NCBI RefSeq assembly: GCF_030814715.1
Contig: NZ_JAUSVO010000002.1
Location: 558,001 to 622,000, forward strand
Source of the DNA: Kaistia dalseonensis
GTDB lineage: Bacteria > Pseudomonadota > Alphaproteobacteria > Rhizobiales > Kaistiaceae
Reading direction: 5' to 3'
DNA length: 64,000 nucleotides
Translations under genes and position numbers: made by a program
The notes under the pieces: model-generated
Databases searched by the model: none
What the model was told of the DNA's origin: nothing
What the model saw: only the letters and a program-made list of their open reading frames with translations
In this document: positions 3,798 to 18,713 of the stretch, piece by piece
Numbering within the stretch: the first letter of the stretch is position 1
Layout of the letters: the number at the start of each line of letters is the position of its first letter

Positions 3798-6408
3798 TCA
3801 CGATCCTCTTCGGCACCACGACAATCTTGCGGGGAGCCCGGCCTTCCAGCGCACGCGTGACGCCTTCAAGCGCAAGCACGGCCTCCTGAATATCAGCTTC
3901 GGAGGCCGTTGCCGAGATCGTCAGTTCAGCACGCTTCTTGCCGTTGATCTGGACCGGCAGCGTCATTTCGTCCTCGACCAGCAGCGCGCGGTCGACGACG
4001 GGCCAAGGCGCCTCGGCCGCGAGGCCTTCGCCGCCCAGAATGGTCCAGCATTCCTCGGCCAGATGCGGGATCATCGGCCCAATGACGCCGGTCACGATCC
4101 GCGCCGCCTCGTTGAGCGCGAAGGCGAGATCAGCCGACGGCGCGCCACCGGCATTGCGCACGGCCGCGATCGCCTCGCCGAACTGGTTGGCGAAGGCGTG
4201 GACGCGCGCGACGGCGACGTTGAAGCGCAGCCGGTCGAAGTCCTCCTCGACCGAAGCGGCGAGCTTGTGCGCGGCGCGGCGGAGCGCGGTCGCCTCCGGA
4301 CCGAACTGGTTTGGCAGGCCGCTGGCTTCGGCGCCGCCGAGCTCGACGGCCTCGTTGACCAGGCGCCACAGCCGCTGCGTGAAGCGCCACGCGCCCTCGA
4401 TGCCGGCTTCCGTCCATTCGCTGTCGCGCTCGGGCGGCGTGTCGGAGAGCATGAACCAGCGCGCGCAATCGACACCATAGGTATCGGCGACAATCTCCGG
4501 CGGCACGACATTGCGCTTCGACTTCGACATCTTCTCGGGCGGGCCGACCGTCACCGGCTCATCGGTGCCGACGCGAACCGCCGTGCCATCGGCGCGCTTC
4601 TCGACCTCTTCGGGGAACAGCCATTTACCGGCCGAATCCTTGTAGGTCTCGTGGACGATCATGCCCTGCGTGAACAGGCCGGCAAACGGCTCGGCGACCG
4701 AGACGCGGCCGACGCTCTTCAGCGCGCGGGTGAAGAAGCGCGAATAGAGCAGATGCAGGATCGCATGCTCGATGCCGCCAATATACTGGTCGACGGGCAG
4801 CCAGTGATCGGCAGCGCCCTTGGAGAGCGGCTGCTCGCCGGGCGCGCTGGCGAAGCGGGCGAAATACCAGGACGAATCGACGAACGTGTCCATCGTATCG
4901 GTCTCGCGCGTCGCCGCGCCGCCGCATTGCGGACAGTTCACATGCTTCCAGGTCGGATGGCGATCGAGCGGATTGCCCGGCCGGTCGAAGGTGACGTCGT
5001 CCGGCAGCACGACCGGCAGGTCGGCCTTCGGCACCGGCACCGGACCGCAGCTCGGGCAATGGATGATCGGGATCGGGCAGCCCCAATAACGCTGCCGCGA
5101 AATGCCCCAGTCGCGCAGGCGGAAATTGACCTGCCGCTTGCCCTGCGGCCGGCCGGCGAGATCCTGCGCCTCGAGGCGCCTGGCGATCGCTTCCTTGGCG
5201 TCCGGGATCGAGAGACCGTCCATGAAATCGGAATGGAACAGCAGCCCATCGCCGTCATAGGCGACATTGCCGACCGCGAAGGTCTCGGGATCCTCGCCTT
5301 CGGGCAGGACCACGGCCTTGACCGGCAAATCATATTTGCGCGCGAAATCGAGATCGCGCTGGTCATGCGCCGGGCAGCCGAAAATGGCGCCGGTGCCGTA
5401 ATCCATCAGGATGAAGTTCGCGACATAGACGGGCAAATACCAGCCGGGCACGAGCGGGTGCTCGGCGCGAATGCCGGTATCGAAGCCCTTCTTTTCCTGC
5501 GTCTCGATCGCCTCGGCCGACGTGCCGCCGCGACGGCACTCGGCGATGAAATCGGCGAGACCGGGCTTCGTATCCGCGAGCTTCTCGGCCAGCGGGTGAT
5601 TGGCGGCGATCGCCAGGAAGGACGCGCCATAGAGCGTATCCGGCCGGGTCGTGTAGACCTCGAGCTCGGTATCGCCGGCCGGCGCCGTCTTTGCGTCGAG
5701 CGCGAAGCGGACCATCAGGCCTTCCGACCGGCCGATCCAGTTGCGCTGCATCAGGCGGACCTTGTCCGGCCAGCGGTCGAGCCCGTCCAGCGCCGCGAGC
5801 AGTTCCTCGCCGAACGCCGTGATCTTGAAGAACCATTGCGACAGCTTGCGCCGCTCGACCAGCGCACCCGAGCGCCAGCCGCGACCGTCGATCACCTGCT
5901 CATTGGCGAGCACGGTGTTGTCGATCGGGTCCCAGTTGACCTCGCTCTCCTTGCGATAGACGAGGCCTTCGCCGAAGAAATCAGTGAAGATCGACTGCTG
6001 CTCGGCATAATAGGAGGGATCGCAGGTCGCGATCTCGCGGCTCCAGTCGAGCGACAGGCCGAGCAGCTTCAACTGCTCCTTCATCGTCGCGATATTCTCG
6101 TAGGTCCAGATCTTGGGATGGCTGTTGCGCTCGATCGCGGCGTTTTCCGCCGGCAGGCCAAAGGCATCCCAGCCCATCGGATGCAGGACGTTGAAGCCCT
6201 TCATCCGCTTGAAGCGGGCCACGACGTCGCCCATGACATAGTTCCGCCCATGGCCGATATGGATCCGGCCCGACGGATAGGGGAACATCTCGAGCACGTA
6301 ATATTTCGGACGCGGATTGTCGTTCTTCGTCTCGAAGATGCCGCGTTCGGCCCAGACGCGCTGCCAGCGCGGTTCGGCGTCGCGGGGATTGTAACGTTCT
6401 ATGGCCAT
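3784..6408 (-). CDS. leuS: Leucyl-tRNA synthetase
   Basis: 874 residues, normal for bacterial LeuRS, a class I synthetase that charges tRNA-Leu in the cytoplasm. The HIGH signature is at residues 50-53 within [12 protein letters not shown], and KMSKS is at residues 626-630. Between them lie the editing domain and a zinc-ribbon-like CPSC...CPQC insertion. I chose ATG 6408 ([10 protein letters not shown]), the usual LeuRS N-terminus; an in-frame upstream ATG would add 22 unrelated residues. No strong Shine-Dalgarno is visible at the chosen start. Confidence 0.97.
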
Positions 6409-6573
6409 GATCCGTCGTCGAAATGGGATAAAAGGGCGGCAGTCGCCGCCTTTGGGACAGGCAGCGACCTTCACCAGAAAGGTCGCGCGTGGTCAACCGC
6501 TATCGCAGCCGCAGCGGTTGAGCAGGCTTTGATGGCGTGTTAGGCGCAACAATCGTTTTGTTCCGGAGGCACC

Positions 6574-7251
6574 ATGTCCGACGATGTCGAAGCGCGTCTC
6601 GCAACCGTGCTTGAACGCATTGGCGCTGCCGAAGCGCAATATGGGCGTGCTCCCGGCAGCGCGCAACTGATCGCGGTCTCGAAGACCTTCGACGCCGATG
6701 CGATCCGGCCCGTGATCGCGGCCGGCCAGCGCCGGTTCGGCGAGAACCGCGTGCAGGAAGCGCAGTCGAAATGGCCGGCGCTGCGCGCTGAGACCACCGA
6801 TATCGAGCTGCACCTGATCGGCCCGCTGCAATCCAACAAGGCGCGCGAGGCAGTCTCGCTCTTCGACGCCATCCACACGATCGACCGCGACAAGATCGCC
6901 GGCGCGATCGCCGATGAAATGGCCCGGCTCGGCCGCACGCCGCTCCTCTTCGTTCAGGTCAATACCGGGCTCGAGCCACAAAAGGCCGGCATTGCGCCGC
7001 GCGAGGCGGTCGCCTTCGTCGAGCGCTGCCGCGCCGAGCACGGCCTCGCCATTGCCGGGCTGATGTGCATCCCGCCCGCCAACGAAATTCCTGGGCCGCA
7101 TTTCGCGCTGCTCGCCAAGCTCGCCGCCGAGGCCGGGCTGCGCGAACTCTCCATGGGCATGAGCAGCGATTTCGAAACAGCGATCGCCCACGGCGCGACC
7201 TATATGCGCGTCGGCGGCGCCATCTTCGGTCATCGGCCGCCGATCGCCTGA
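6574..7251 (+). CDS. YggS-family pyridoxal phosphate homeostasis protein
   Basis: 225 residues. This is a PLP-binding TIM-barrel protein related to the N-terminal domain of alanine racemase. The PLP lysine is K37 in LIAVSKTF. Other family motifs are FGENRVQEA and the late LSMGMSSDFETAI. It buffers free PLP and has no known catalytic reaction. TCCGGAGG sits just upstream of the ATG. It is transcribed divergently from leuS, a common arrangement in rhizobia. Its stop abuts the stop of the convergent L,D-transpeptidase gene with no gap. Confidence 0.94.
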   Translation: MSDDVEARLATVLERIGAAEAQYGRAPGSAQLIAVSKTFDADAIRPVIAAGQRRFGENRVQEAQSKWPALRAETTDIELHLIGPLQSNKAREAVSLFDAIHTIDRDKIAGAIADEMARLGRTPLLFVQVNTGLEPQKAGIAPREAVAFVERCRAEHGLAIAGLMCIPPANEIPGPHFALLAKLAAEAGLRELSMGMSSDFETAIAHGATYMRVGGAIFGHRPPIA

Positions 7252-7782
7252 TCAGGCGACCGAGACGATCGCGCCCGGGCGAAGACGGCGCAGAATGGCC
7301 AGCATGTCGGCCTTGCGCACGGCGACGCAGCCTTCGGTCGGCGAGAAGCCGGGCCGCGCGAGATGGAAGAAGATCGCGCTGCCCCTGCCCTGCGCCCGGC
7401 GCGACAGGTTCCAGTCGAGCACCACGACGACGTCATAGAGATGATCGGCGCGCCACATCGCTTCATGGCTGGCGCGGTAGGGCAGCTTGACGGGCCGGTT
7501 GTAGTTCGCGTCCCAGACCTGATCGCACCAGCCGTCATCGGCACGGAGCGGACGGGTGGGCAGCAGCGATCGCGGACGGGCGACCCGATCCGGCCGATAG
7601 CGGATTTCCACAACGCGCATGCGGCTCGCCGGGGTCCCGCCATCGCCCTCGCGCTTGCCATGGGTGAGGCCGCTGCGGCCCAGCGCGCAGGGGTAAACCG
7701 CCTGTCCGATCCGCAGCAGACCCCTGGTGCGCGAGCCGGGGCGGGATCGAACTTCGATGATCGTCATGTTCCGGGCGCTCAT
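7252..7782 (-). CDS. L,D-transpeptidase (YkuD-like) family protein
   Basis: 176 residues. The C-terminal half carries the YkuD catalytic signature as HLARPGFSPTEGCVAV, with His, Ser, Gly and the nucleophilic Cys in order, so the active site looks intact. Such enzymes make 3-3 peptidoglycan cross-links or attach proteins to stem peptides. The protein looks like the compact single-domain COG3786 type. No signal peptide or membrane segment is visible in any usable start (ATG 7782 or ATG 7767), which is odd for a periplasmic enzyme. It is divergent from the response-regulator gene. Confidence 0.8.
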   Translation of the reverse strand: MSARNMTIIEVRSRPGSRTRGLLRIGQAVYPCALGRSGLTHGKREGDGGTPASRMRVVEIRYRPDRVARPRSLLPTRPLRADDGWCDQVWDANYNRPVKLPYRASHEAMWRADHLYDVVVVLDWNLSRRAQGRGSAIFFHLARPGFSPTEGCVAVRKADMLAILRRLRPGAIVSVA

Positions 7783-16892: not shown

Positions 16893-18713
16893 ATGACGGA
16901 ACGACCCGACGACTCTACTGGCGAAGCGCCTGAACTGGACATGCGCGGCGAGATAGAGGAGCTGATTCGACAGTTTACCGCCTTCATGTCGGCGCTCTGG
17001 CACTCGTCGGGGCGGAGCACCTTCGTGCTGCTCTCTGTCGGCATGGTCACGGTGATCATCGCGACATCGGGCATGCAGATCGTGCTCAATGCCTGGAACA
17101 AGCCGTTCTATGACGCGATCGAGCAGAAGAACGTTCCGTCCTTCCTGTTCTACCTGATGGTGTTCGGCGGCATTGCCGGCGTGCTGCTCGCCCTCAATGT
17201 CGCGCAGACCTGGCTCGACCAGATGATCAAGCTGCAGTCGCGCAAATGGCTGACGCGTGACCTGATCAGCCAATGGCTGAAGCCGCGGCGGCTGGTCCTG
17301 CTCCGCGACGCCGGCGACATCGGCATCAACCCGGACCAGCGCGTGCACGAGGATGCGCGCCATCTCGCGGAGCTGACAGCCGGGCTCGGCATCGGCCTGC
17401 TCCAGTCCTCATTGCTGCTCGTCAGCTTCATTACGGTGCTCTGGAGCCTTTCGAGCGGCATCGCGCTCGTCATCGACGGCATGAGCATCGTCATCCCGGG
17501 CTATATGGTGTGGTGCGCGCTGATCTATGCCGCAACCGGCTCCTGGGTGTCCTGGCGCGTCGGCCGGCCGCTGATCAATATCGGCGTCGAACGCTATGCG
17601 CGCGAGGCGGACATGCGCTTCGCCCTGGTCCAGGTCAGCGAGAACGCCAATGGCATCGTCCTCAATGCCGGCGAGGCGGATGAACGGGGCCGCCTCAACG
17701 AAGAGCTCGAGCGGCTGCTCGCCGTCATGCGCCGGCTCGTCGATTCGATCGCGCGGCTGACCTGGGTCACGGCCGGCTATGGCTGGGTCGGCATCGTGGC
17801 GCCGATCGTCATCGCCGCCCCCGGCTATTTCGGCGGCCAGCTTTCCTTCGGGCAGCTGATGATGGTCGTCGGTGCCTTCAACCAGGTGCAGAATTCACTG
17901 CGCTGGTTCGTCGACAATTTCAGCGCCATCGCCGACTGGCGCGCGACGCTCTCCCGCGTCATGAGCTTCCGCGAGGCGTTGACGTCACTCGAAGACCAGC
18001 GCAACGGCGCCGGTCGGATCGCCTATGAACCCGATCCAATGGATGGTCTTTCCCTGCGCGACGTCTCGGTGCGCTGGACCGACAATAGGGCGCGGCTCGA
18101 CCAGCCGGAAATCGACATTCTGCCCGGCGACCGCATGCTGATCGTCGATCGGACCGGATCGGGACGCGGCGCCCTCTTCTCGGCACTGGCGGGCCTCTGG
18201 CCATGGGGATCCGGCACCATCCTGCTGCCGGCCCGCAGCAAGGCGATGTTCCTGCCCGAACGCCCCTATGTGCCGGACGGACCGCTGCGCGCCGCCCTCA
18301 CCTATCCGACTTCGGGATCAGGCCTCTCGGACGGCGACCTTGGCGCCGCGCTCGACCGCGTCGGCCTCTCGCGCCTCAAGCCATCGCTGGACCGCAAGTC
18401 GCGATGGGGCCGCGAGCTCTCATCCGACGACGAGGAACGCCTGACCTTCGCGCGCCTGCTCCTGCTCAAGCCGCAATGGATCTTCAGCGAGCAGTCGATC
18501 GACACGCTCGACGACGAACAGCGCGCGATCTTCCGCTCGATCCTCGAAACCGATCTCGCGAAATCGGCCCTGGTCACGGTCTCGGCGCGCCCATCCGCCG
18601 GTGATTTCTACAATCGCACGGCCAATCTGGTTCTCGTCGAACCAGCTGAACCTGAACACATTGCCGACGACACCGCCGCGGCGATCGAGACAGCGCCCGG
18701 AACACCCTCATGA
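16893..18713 (+). CDS. SbmA/BacA-YddA type ABC membrane protein with a degenerate ATPase domain
   Basis: 606 residues: a transmembrane domain (about 1-350, hydrophobic segments near 42-60, 84-104, 163-186, 195-215 and 290-312) of the ABC_membrane_2 / SbmA-BacA type fused to a C-terminal nucleotide-binding domain. The NBD fold is recognisable, but every catalytic motif deviates. Walker A is DRTGSGRG at 419-426 (Lys to Arg425, Ser to Gly426). The Q-loop Gln is Glu456. The signature is LSSDDEER at 509-516 (Gly lost). Walker B/catalytic DE is EQ at 533-534. The switch His is Ala565. Relatives import peptides or acyl compounds; SbmA and BacA are proton-driven and have no NBD. I infer a non-hydrolysing, possibly proton-coupled transporter. 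The gene overlaps the glucanase gene by 4 bp. Confidence 0.85.
   Translation: MTERPDDSTGEAPELDMRGEIEELIRQFTAFMSALWHSSGRSTFVLLSVGMVTVIIATSGMQIVLNAWNKPFYDAIEQKNVPSFLFYLMVFGGIAGVLLALNVAQTWLDQMIKLQSRKWLTRDLISQWLKPRRLVLLRDAGDIGINPDQRVHEDARHLAELTAGLGIGLLQSSLLLVSFITVLWSLSSGIALVIDGMSIVIPGYMVWCALIYAATGSWVSWRVGRPLINIGVERYAREADMRFALVQVSENANGIVLNAGEADERGRLNEELERLLAVMRRLVDSIARLTWVTAGYGWVGIVAPIVIAAPGYFGGQLSFGQLMMVVGAFNQVQNSLRWFVDNFSAIADWRATLSRVMSFREALTSLEDQRNGAGRIAYEPDPMDGLSLRDVSVRWTDNRARLDQPEIDILPGDRMLIVDRTGSGRGALFSALAGLWPWGSGTILLPARSKAMFLPERPYVPDGPLRAALTYPTSGSGLSDGDLGAALDRVGLSRLKPSLDRKSRWGRELSSDDEERLTFARLLLLKPQWIFSEQSIDTLDDEQRAIFRSILETDLAKSALVTVSARPSAGDFYNRTANLVLVEPAEPEHIADDTAAAIETAPGTPS

Follow-up and report, generated by a model that had tools for sequence, protein, structure and literature searches.

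The window analysed here, a stretch of 64,000 nucleotides from Kaistia dalseonensis (contig NZ_JAUSVO010000002.1), encodes an ATP-binding cassette (ABC) half-transporter in which a transmembrane domain (TMD) is joined to a nucleotide-binding domain (NBD) that has lost every catalytic motif residue we scored. Alignments and trees indicate that this motif loss is old and extends across a whole lineage, to which the presumed ExsE of Sinorhizobium meliloti also belongs, with the Kaistia proteins at one far end of the decay. The reading we favour, with moderate confidence, is that the protein is an ATP-independent transporter of the ExsE lineage that imports glucan oligosaccharides and keeps its NBD as a dead, docked clamp.

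A predicted NBD fold without catalytic residues

The open reading frame (16893..18713; all features of the window given here lie on the (+) strand) runs from ATG to TGA with no internal stop and encodes 606 amino acids; its assignment as an ExsE-lineage half-transporter with a degenerate NBD draws on the frame, domain matches and a TMD tree. The TMD (residues about 40–365; 17010..17987) was delimited by the Pfam families ABC_membrane_2 and SbmA_BacA (PF05992) and by an AlphaFold2 (AF2) single-chain model. The SbmA_BacA match agrees with an initial annotation of this gene, made from the letters alone, which had described the membrane half as akin to SbmA/BacA. The NBD (residues 380–582; 18030..18638) was recognised by its fold in the AF2 model, a phmmer match and a weak score with Pfam ABC_tran. 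Most ten-residue blocks of the modelled NBD had a predicted local distance difference test score (pLDDT) of 86–92 (whole-model mean 76.4; predicted template modelling score 0.69), in keeping with the earlier view that the NBD fold is otherwise well kept. The best match in the Protein Data Bank was Rv1819c (6tqe; phmmer E 6e-60; Foldseek E 1.1e-21, 27% identity), with a whole-chain root-mean-square deviation of 13.7 in the Foldseek superposition. By descent and predicted fold, the protein appears to be an ABC transporter with a type-IV TMD and an NBD fold in one chain.

Alignment with intact relatives allowed seven positions to be scored: two in Walker A (Lys and Ser/Thr), two in Walker B (Asp and Glu), the Gln of the Q-loop, the second Gly of the signature and the switch His. 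The window protein retains 0/7. Its Walker A reads D-R-T-G-S-G-R425-G426 (18147..18170), the Q-loop Gln is E456 (18258..18260), the signature is L-S-S-D512-D-E with the second Gly replaced by Asp (18417..18434), Walker B ends in S-E533-Q534 (18477..18494) and the switch His is A565 (18585..18587). Every substitution that the initial annotation had listed, including S510-S511-D512, was found at its place. D512 resembles the G551D substitution of CFTR. None of the residues that a working ATPase needs at these positions is present, and the protein is predicted to be inactive. The window NBD scored 16.8 bits with ABC_tran, below the cut-off of 25; the same profile gave an intact relative (L057) 66.3 bits, an intact paralogue from the K. 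dalseonensis genome 61.5, L045 50.5, the S. meliloti homologue 33.6 and L046 25.8.

A near-full-length orthologue was present in 13 of 14 Kaistia genomes, K. dalseonensis included, and the 12 others were 70–75% identical to the window protein; the fourteenth genome yielded a fragment on a short contig that agrees at the readable motif positions. E456, E533 and Q534 are fixed in 13/13 orthologues, the Lys at 425, Gly at 512 and switch His at 565 are absent from 13/13, and a Ser or Thr at 426 is absent from 12/13. Position 425 is Arg in seven and His in six, and the signature Gly position is Asp in 12 and Ser in one. The homologue alignment that the initial annotation had called for thus showed the same seven positions to be lost throughout Kaistia, bar one residue in one orthologue, and on this evidence the motif loss does not look like a private accident of the window protein. 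The K. dalseonensis genome also encodes an intact YddA-like paralogue (L002:1167-2819, 7/7 motif residues), and so does each of the 12 further Kaistia genomes in which the orthologue is near full length.

The degenerate state is old and lineage-wide

Relatives were drawn from the best 80 of 148 loci in a scan of public genomes, from an order-wide search (297 genomes, 41 matching at E 1e-150 or better) and from a family-wide search of a group labelled f23 (247 genomes, 78 matching at E 1e-120 or better, 50 of the 78 read). We infer that f23 is Rhizobiaceae from one of its loci, L170, an ExsE homologue with 86% identity. Fragments (L021, L034, L035, L113), L064 with its two stops and near-duplicates were dropped before counting. 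Proteins scoring below 6/7 were called degenerate, and no row scored 6. Thinning at 85% identity took the motif tally from 149 to 94 degenerate members. The Kaistia duplicates L037-L044 and other duplicates entered before thinning; L037-L044 were left out of the trees, the Kaistia residue counts and the entropy comparison, and L206, whose frame is broken, was left out of the entropy, motif and linkage tallies.

Among the thinned degenerate members the signature Gly is retained in 3/94, the switch His in 3/93 and the Q-loop Gln in 21/94, and the Walker A Lys, Walker B Asp and Walker B Glu in 67/94, 78/94 and 56/94, respectively. Scores ranged from 0 (six rows, seen in Kaistia only) to 5 (10 rows). 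The 50 f23 genomes read gave 43 degenerate proteins (score 1–4), six proteins lacking an NBD, the one broken frame (L206) and no intact protein. Because the signature Gly and switch His are gone almost throughout while most members keep the Walker A Lys, we infer that elements of hydrolysis were lost first and nucleotide contacts later, several times.

In a TMD-only tree of 52 chosen rows, all degenerate and NBD-less rows separated from all intact rows with support of 100/98, consistent with a place for the window protein in an ExsE lineage, together with the presumed S. meliloti ExsE and apart from intact YddA/BclA-type relatives, and with descent of this lineage from intact ATPases. A single origin depends somewhat on the choice of rows. 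The first careful tree had 74 rows, among them SbmA and YddA of E. coli, which are very distant; there L075/L104 fell outside the group formed by the remaining degenerate rows, implying two changes, with one change in 25% of bootstraps; quick trees gave one change at support 79 (92 rows) and 98 (87 rows, without E. coli). Each motif residue needs three to six changes on the 74-row tree. We rejected the idea of a Kaistia-only oddity, as the degenerate state is shared across many genera and forms one lineage in the TMD tree.

Several members stand out within the sample. In an f23 subgroup (L210, L211, L212, L215-L219) the Walker A Lys and Ser/Thr were lost separately (R-R, R-H, R-K, Q-R) and 7/8 keep the Q-loop Gln, a differently ordered route to a dead NBD. 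L163 and L067, from a Hyphomicrobiales bacterium metagenome-assembled genome (MAG) grouped with Kaistia's family, keep 5/7 residues and represent a less-decayed close relative. MAGs labelled Verrucomicrobiota and Marinimicrobia (among L038, L039, L051 and L111) bear alphaproteobacterial-type genes, with which their labels seem to disagree.

Two TMD positions distinguish the lineage: D123 (17259..17261), present in 82/94 degenerate members and 1/48 intact rows, and H157, present in 72/94 and 1/48, which lies with E153, the residue aligned with SbmA E193, at 17349..17363. D123 and H157 may be candidates for a new (proton) coupling device; having been picked out by the comparison itself, they are a lead and not an independent test.

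Purifying selection acts on both halves

We found no stop inside the match in any of the 13 near-full-length Kaistia copies. The ratio of nonsynonymous to synonymous substitution rates (dN/dS) over six close Kaistia pairs was 0.03–0.14 for the TMD and 0.07–0.41 for the NBD. Over 78 Kaistia pairs the median NBD/TMD dN ratio was 2.13; the intact paralogue of those genomes gave 0.96. The rate comparison suggested in the initial annotation therefore shows a faster NBD with dN/dS well below 1 in both halves, which suggests that the NBD is less constrained than the TMD, yet not free. With open frames in 13/13 copies and purifying selection on TMD and NBD, a pseudogene was rejected, as the annotation had judged from the intact frame.

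Within the NBD, nucleotide-contact positions had an entropy of 1.75 bits against an NBD average of 1.78 in the degenerate lineage, compared with 0.30 against 0.92 in intact relatives (19 rows on each side). In the degenerate lineage the segment that follows Walker A is still better conserved, at 1.04 bits.

NBD-less relatives and the docking loop

Six f23 genomes, under four genus codes, encode proteins that match the ExsE TMD at 53–60% and end at about one point after the sixth transmembrane helix. An ABC_tran match was absent from both of the six that were scanned. We found no NBD remnant near these genes, in stretches of about 10 kb (3.5 kb at L205; best tblastn E 0.31), nor did the rest of the six genomes contain an ExsE-like NBD, the best match there having 31% identity (E 2.4e-19) and two weaker ones reaching 33%; three control genomes gave 40–53% identity at E 1.8e-50 or better in the same search. 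Among the six proteins dN/dS was 0.19–0.44, and D123 and H157 are retained in 6/6. Five of the six were included in the 52-row tree, where they formed one clade (100/99) inside the degenerate lineage, and a topology uniting the degenerate rows without them was rejected (approximately unbiased (AU) test, p 5.5e-82). These results point to a separate NBD loss nested in the degenerate lineage and apart from that of SbmA. The proposal that the window protein is an evolutionary intermediate can therefore stand insofar as the protein is part of a series from intact through dead to NBD-less; the line that led to SbmA itself is a different one.

The AF2 model contains a short helix at residues 133–138 (17289..17306), between the second and third long helices, where the coupling helix of intracellular loop 1 (ICL1) is expected, and a second at residues 252–257 in the docking-loop region of ICL2 (residues 248–262; 17634..17678). 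This ICL2 region is kept in the Kaistia proteins and has decayed in the NBD-less relatives. At matched TMD identity, ICL2 identity was 0.86 (TMD 0.82) for Kaistia pairs versus 0.46 (TMD 0.81) for NBD-less pairs, and intact pairs in the 0.70–0.80 band gave 0.84 at a TMD identity of 0.77. As further comparators, other degenerate pairs gave 0.59 at 0.64, and NBD-less versus degenerate pairs 0.34 at 0.63. Under the matched control, ICL1 divergence was weak and ICL2 alone was clear. Because ICL2 is held in Kaistia and decays where the NBD is absent, the dead NBD is most likely a docked structural part. The initial annotation had offered a regulatory or a structural module: conservation of ICL2 alongside a dead NBD argues for the structural option, and a nucleotide-sensing regulatory role seems unlikely because the nucleotide-contact residues are gone.

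A glucanase encoded with the transporter

Downstream, with a start that overlaps the transporter stop by 4 bp, lies a gene for a 421-residue GH144 endo-beta-1,2-glucanase (PF10091; 18710..19975). The protein matches the Chitinophaga enzyme CpSGL (5gzh) at E 6.4e-142, and its D119, D123, E126 and E195 align with the catalytic acids D135, D139, E142 and E211 of CpSGL; the enzyme falls within GH144 as defined by CpSGL-like sequence with those four residues, F268 and Y330. It differs from CpSGL, which we take to be secreted, in having no hydrophobic N-terminal stretch by hydropathy. The same was true of every partner enzyme scored, 0/98 (42 GH144, 41 GH3 and 15 GH15) exceeding a cut-off of 2.0 in a hydropathy scan that, with its guessed start Met, is a crude stand-in for a signal-peptide predictor. 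The positive control, a DUF1194 protein of L063, scored 2.27. Enzymes located inside the cell would need an importer to supply them.

Linkage to such enzymes recurs in the lineage. A GH144 or GH3 gene lay within 3 kb in 43/90 thinned degenerate versus 3/19 intact loci (p 0.011, ancestry ignored), with undercounting at L121-L144 and L170-L199, whose flanks are only about 1.5 kb; an earlier count without the f23 loci L170-L219 gave 42/58 versus 3/19 (Fisher p 2.3e-5). Among 90 unthinned degenerate rows (L037-L164), 39 had GH144 within 400 bp (in 37 of them it was downstream and on the transporter strand), and 39 had GH3 within 1.5 kb (in 36 of them it was upstream and divergent). GH15 lay nearby in ten degenerate loci of L037-L116. 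Three intact (7/7) relatives, L057, L060 and L066 (around 6001-7750), from Rhodospirillales-type genomes, also lie near the same GH3-GH144-GH15 genes and are candidates for the ancestral ATP-driven state.

The window GH144 is the one PF10091 gene of its genome. In ten other genomes searched for PF10091, nine had a frame of 2,859–2,894 residues and one a frame of 1,174 residues. The larger frames are, we presume, of the size expected of cyclic glucan synthases. K. dalseonensis thus fits, by gene content, a consumer and not a maker of cyclic beta-1,2-glucan.

Two other loci deserve mention. L145:2990-6964 holds two adjacent degenerate copies (4/7 and 2/7) in a cluster with GH144, GH15 and GH3, perhaps encoding a heterodimer of two dead halves. 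In Mesorhizobium, the DUF1194 gene, with its hydrophobic N-terminal stretch, follows the transporter at L063:7869-8843 with no glycosidases, and the transporter there may have another substrate or role.

Comparison with known systems

The pSymB-type relative of S. meliloti is 46% identical to the window protein and falls in the same lineage in TMD trees. It scores 4/7, having lost the signature Gly, Q-loop Gln and switch His, and differs from the window protein in keeping the Walker A Lys-Thr and Walker B Asp-Glu. Its locus, as seen in S. medicae and S. meliloti RCAM1750, is flanked by exsH, PAS and response-regulator genes and, on the opposite side, by que genes, with exo genes not far off; unlike the window, it has no GH144 gene beside the transporter. 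The records name no gene, and we take it to be exsE from the exs gene order. ExsE has been placed in a class of its own, mostly in clade A of the SbmA/BacA-like family, and in an S. meliloti delta-bacA mutant the gentamicin phenotype was complemented to an intermediate degree by Phyllobacterium zundukense ExsE, with little to none for NCR247 (PMC12003926, in the part of the article available); the word degenerate does not appear in its main text as available.

The SbmA/BacA (SLiPT) proteins share a related TMD (PF05992). SbmA is described as lacking both the NBD and the coupling helices and as having a complete glutamate ladder (PMC13316013). The window protein differs on both of the first two counts, having an NBD and coupling-helix segments. 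The Rv1819c dimer has a large hydrophilic cavity. Rv1819c/mycobacterial BacA and YddA/BclA differ from the window protein in being ATP-driven, the window protein being without a catalytic residue. For M. marinum BacA, transport is described as strictly coupled to ATP hydrolysis (PMC10960864, part of the text), and for BclA hydrolysis is described as essential (PMC12003926, same portion); with the catalytic residues absent, the window protein would not be expected to transport in this way.

Proposed mechanism and alternatives

We propose descent from an ordinary ABC transporter of the YddA/BclA type. Two early losses, of the signature Gly (usually replaced by Asp) and of the switch His (usually by Arg), would have removed a competent ATPase site. 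The Q-loop, Walker A and Walker B would then have eroded separately in several lines, most Kaistia proteins keeping none of them. In Kaistia the catalytically dead NBD would persist as a docked clamp that steadies the TMD on its cytoplasmic face, and one line of another family would have deleted it. The transporter, probably a homodimer of type-IV fold that would have a large hydrophilic cavity like that of Rv1819c, may import a hydrophilic oligosaccharide. Fragments of beta-1,2-glucan are the most likely cargo, and once in the cytoplasm they would be cut by the co-encoded GH144 glucanase, or by GH3/GH15 enzymes in other genera. Influx could be driven by cytoplasmic hydrolysis (facilitated diffusion), by protons or by both; since a cytoplasmic glucanase removes the oligosaccharides, no ATP would be needed for net influx.

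Four other explanations deserve weighing. The least probable is that the gene is in decay and its loss is merely incomplete: its faster NBD (dN ratio 2.13) would fit, but the frames are open in 13/13 copies, dN/dS is well below 1 in both halves and the state is shared by an old lineage of many genera. We also think it very improbable that the protein pairs with the intact YddA-like paralogue, which would supply the ATPase. To form an ATP site, an ABC dimer pairs the Walker A and B motifs of one half with the signature motif of its partner, and the Kaistia protein offers neither, so that a mixed dimer would have no complete site. The paralogue is present in all 13 Kaistia genomes with a near-full-length copy, at 32–34% identity; against pairing, it is distant and on another contig, both L145 tandem copies are degenerate, and NBD-less members exist. 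Heterodimers with one degenerate site are indeed known, for example MsRv1273c/72c (PMC12038006, in the portion available), and share degenerate NBD motifs with the window protein, but they have one impaired site per dimer, whereas here neither site could be complete.

An atypical ABC transporter, whose NBD binds or slowly hydrolyses nucleotide through non-canonical residues, seems improbable to us, though somewhat less so. The Walker A Lys and Walker B Asp are often kept outside Kaistia and the NBD fold is kept in the model; yet all seven residues are gone in 12/13 Kaistia orthologues and six in the thirteenth, and nucleotide-contact positions across the lineage are as variable as the NBD average. 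The most plausible of the four, and still unlikely, is a membrane receptor, scaffold or regulator that no longer transports, for instance one that holds the glucanase at the membrane. A dead NBD, a partner enzyme gene with a 4-bp overlap and a docking loop conserved among Kaistia proteins would all suit such a role. Set against it, the TMD is the more conserved part, the NBD-less members lack the would-be signalling part, and an ExsE relative changed the gentamicin phenotype in vivo (PMC12003926, as above).

The import reading that we favour has its own difficulties. The Kaistia NBD evolves at about twice the rate of the TMD, indicating weakened constraint, and docking loops have drifted between Kaistia and other members (ICL2 0.47 at a TMD identity of 0.61). 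Persistence of the Walker A Lys and Walker B Asp in many non-Kaistia members suggests that nucleotide binding may matter there. Proton drive, by which SbmA/BacA run according to the initial annotation, is possible, but the SbmA glutamate ladder is incomplete in the window protein (E203, E269 and E378 correspond to A163, G231 and D348; E193 and E276 to E153 and E238; SbmA E287 aligns with E261, where the alignment is unsure), and E153 is Gln or Ala in some members. Glycosidase linkage is weak in f23 (2/14 longer-flank, 0/30 short-flank and 0/6 NBD-less loci) and GH144/GH3 linkage was also absent at the Mesorhizobium and S. meliloti loci examined. ATPase loss is not needed for the glucan pathway, since the intact L057, L060 and L066 adjoin the same glycosidases. 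The own genome has one GH3 match, in a 353-residue frame, leaving the step after GH144 unaccounted for, and the P. zundukense ExsE result would speak for transport by an NBD-dead member only if that protein's own motifs are degenerate.

Implications

An origin of SbmA from a YddA-like ABC transporter by NBD loss has already been proposed (in 2026), the grounds being a tree together with examples in which the domains are separate, such as Rhizobium tibeticum, with the TMD in one gene and the NBD gene in another operon (PMC13316013, in the part available). In the open-access papers searched we found no statement that the NBD of the ExsE lineage is degenerate or ATPase-dead, and none of NBD-less members nested within dead ones or of an association with GH144/GH3. 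The ExsE lineage would be a second case, after SbmA, of an ABC transporter becoming NBD-less, here with intermediates preserved, and the order of events can therefore be read: hydrolysis motifs first, then nucleotide contacts, and the domain and its docking loop last. Taken as a whole, the lineage may record how, long ago and in nature, an ABC transporter became a glucan importer that needs no ATP, with all the stages surviving today, from an intact ATPase in a glucan-utilisation neighbourhood (L057, L060, L066), through hydrolysis-dead proteins with nucleotide-binding residues (most members) and a dead docked NBD (Kaistia), to NBD loss with docking-loop decay (six genomes); we hold this broader proposal at barely better than even confidence. 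Annotations such as 'ABC transporter ATP-binding protein/permease', as on plasmid records, would cover proteins that are probably without ATPase activity. For the organisms concerned, a pathway is suggested in which pieces of beta-1,2-glucan would be taken up for degradation in the cytoplasm, and the lineage bears on how primary, ATP-driven pumps are related to secondary transporters.

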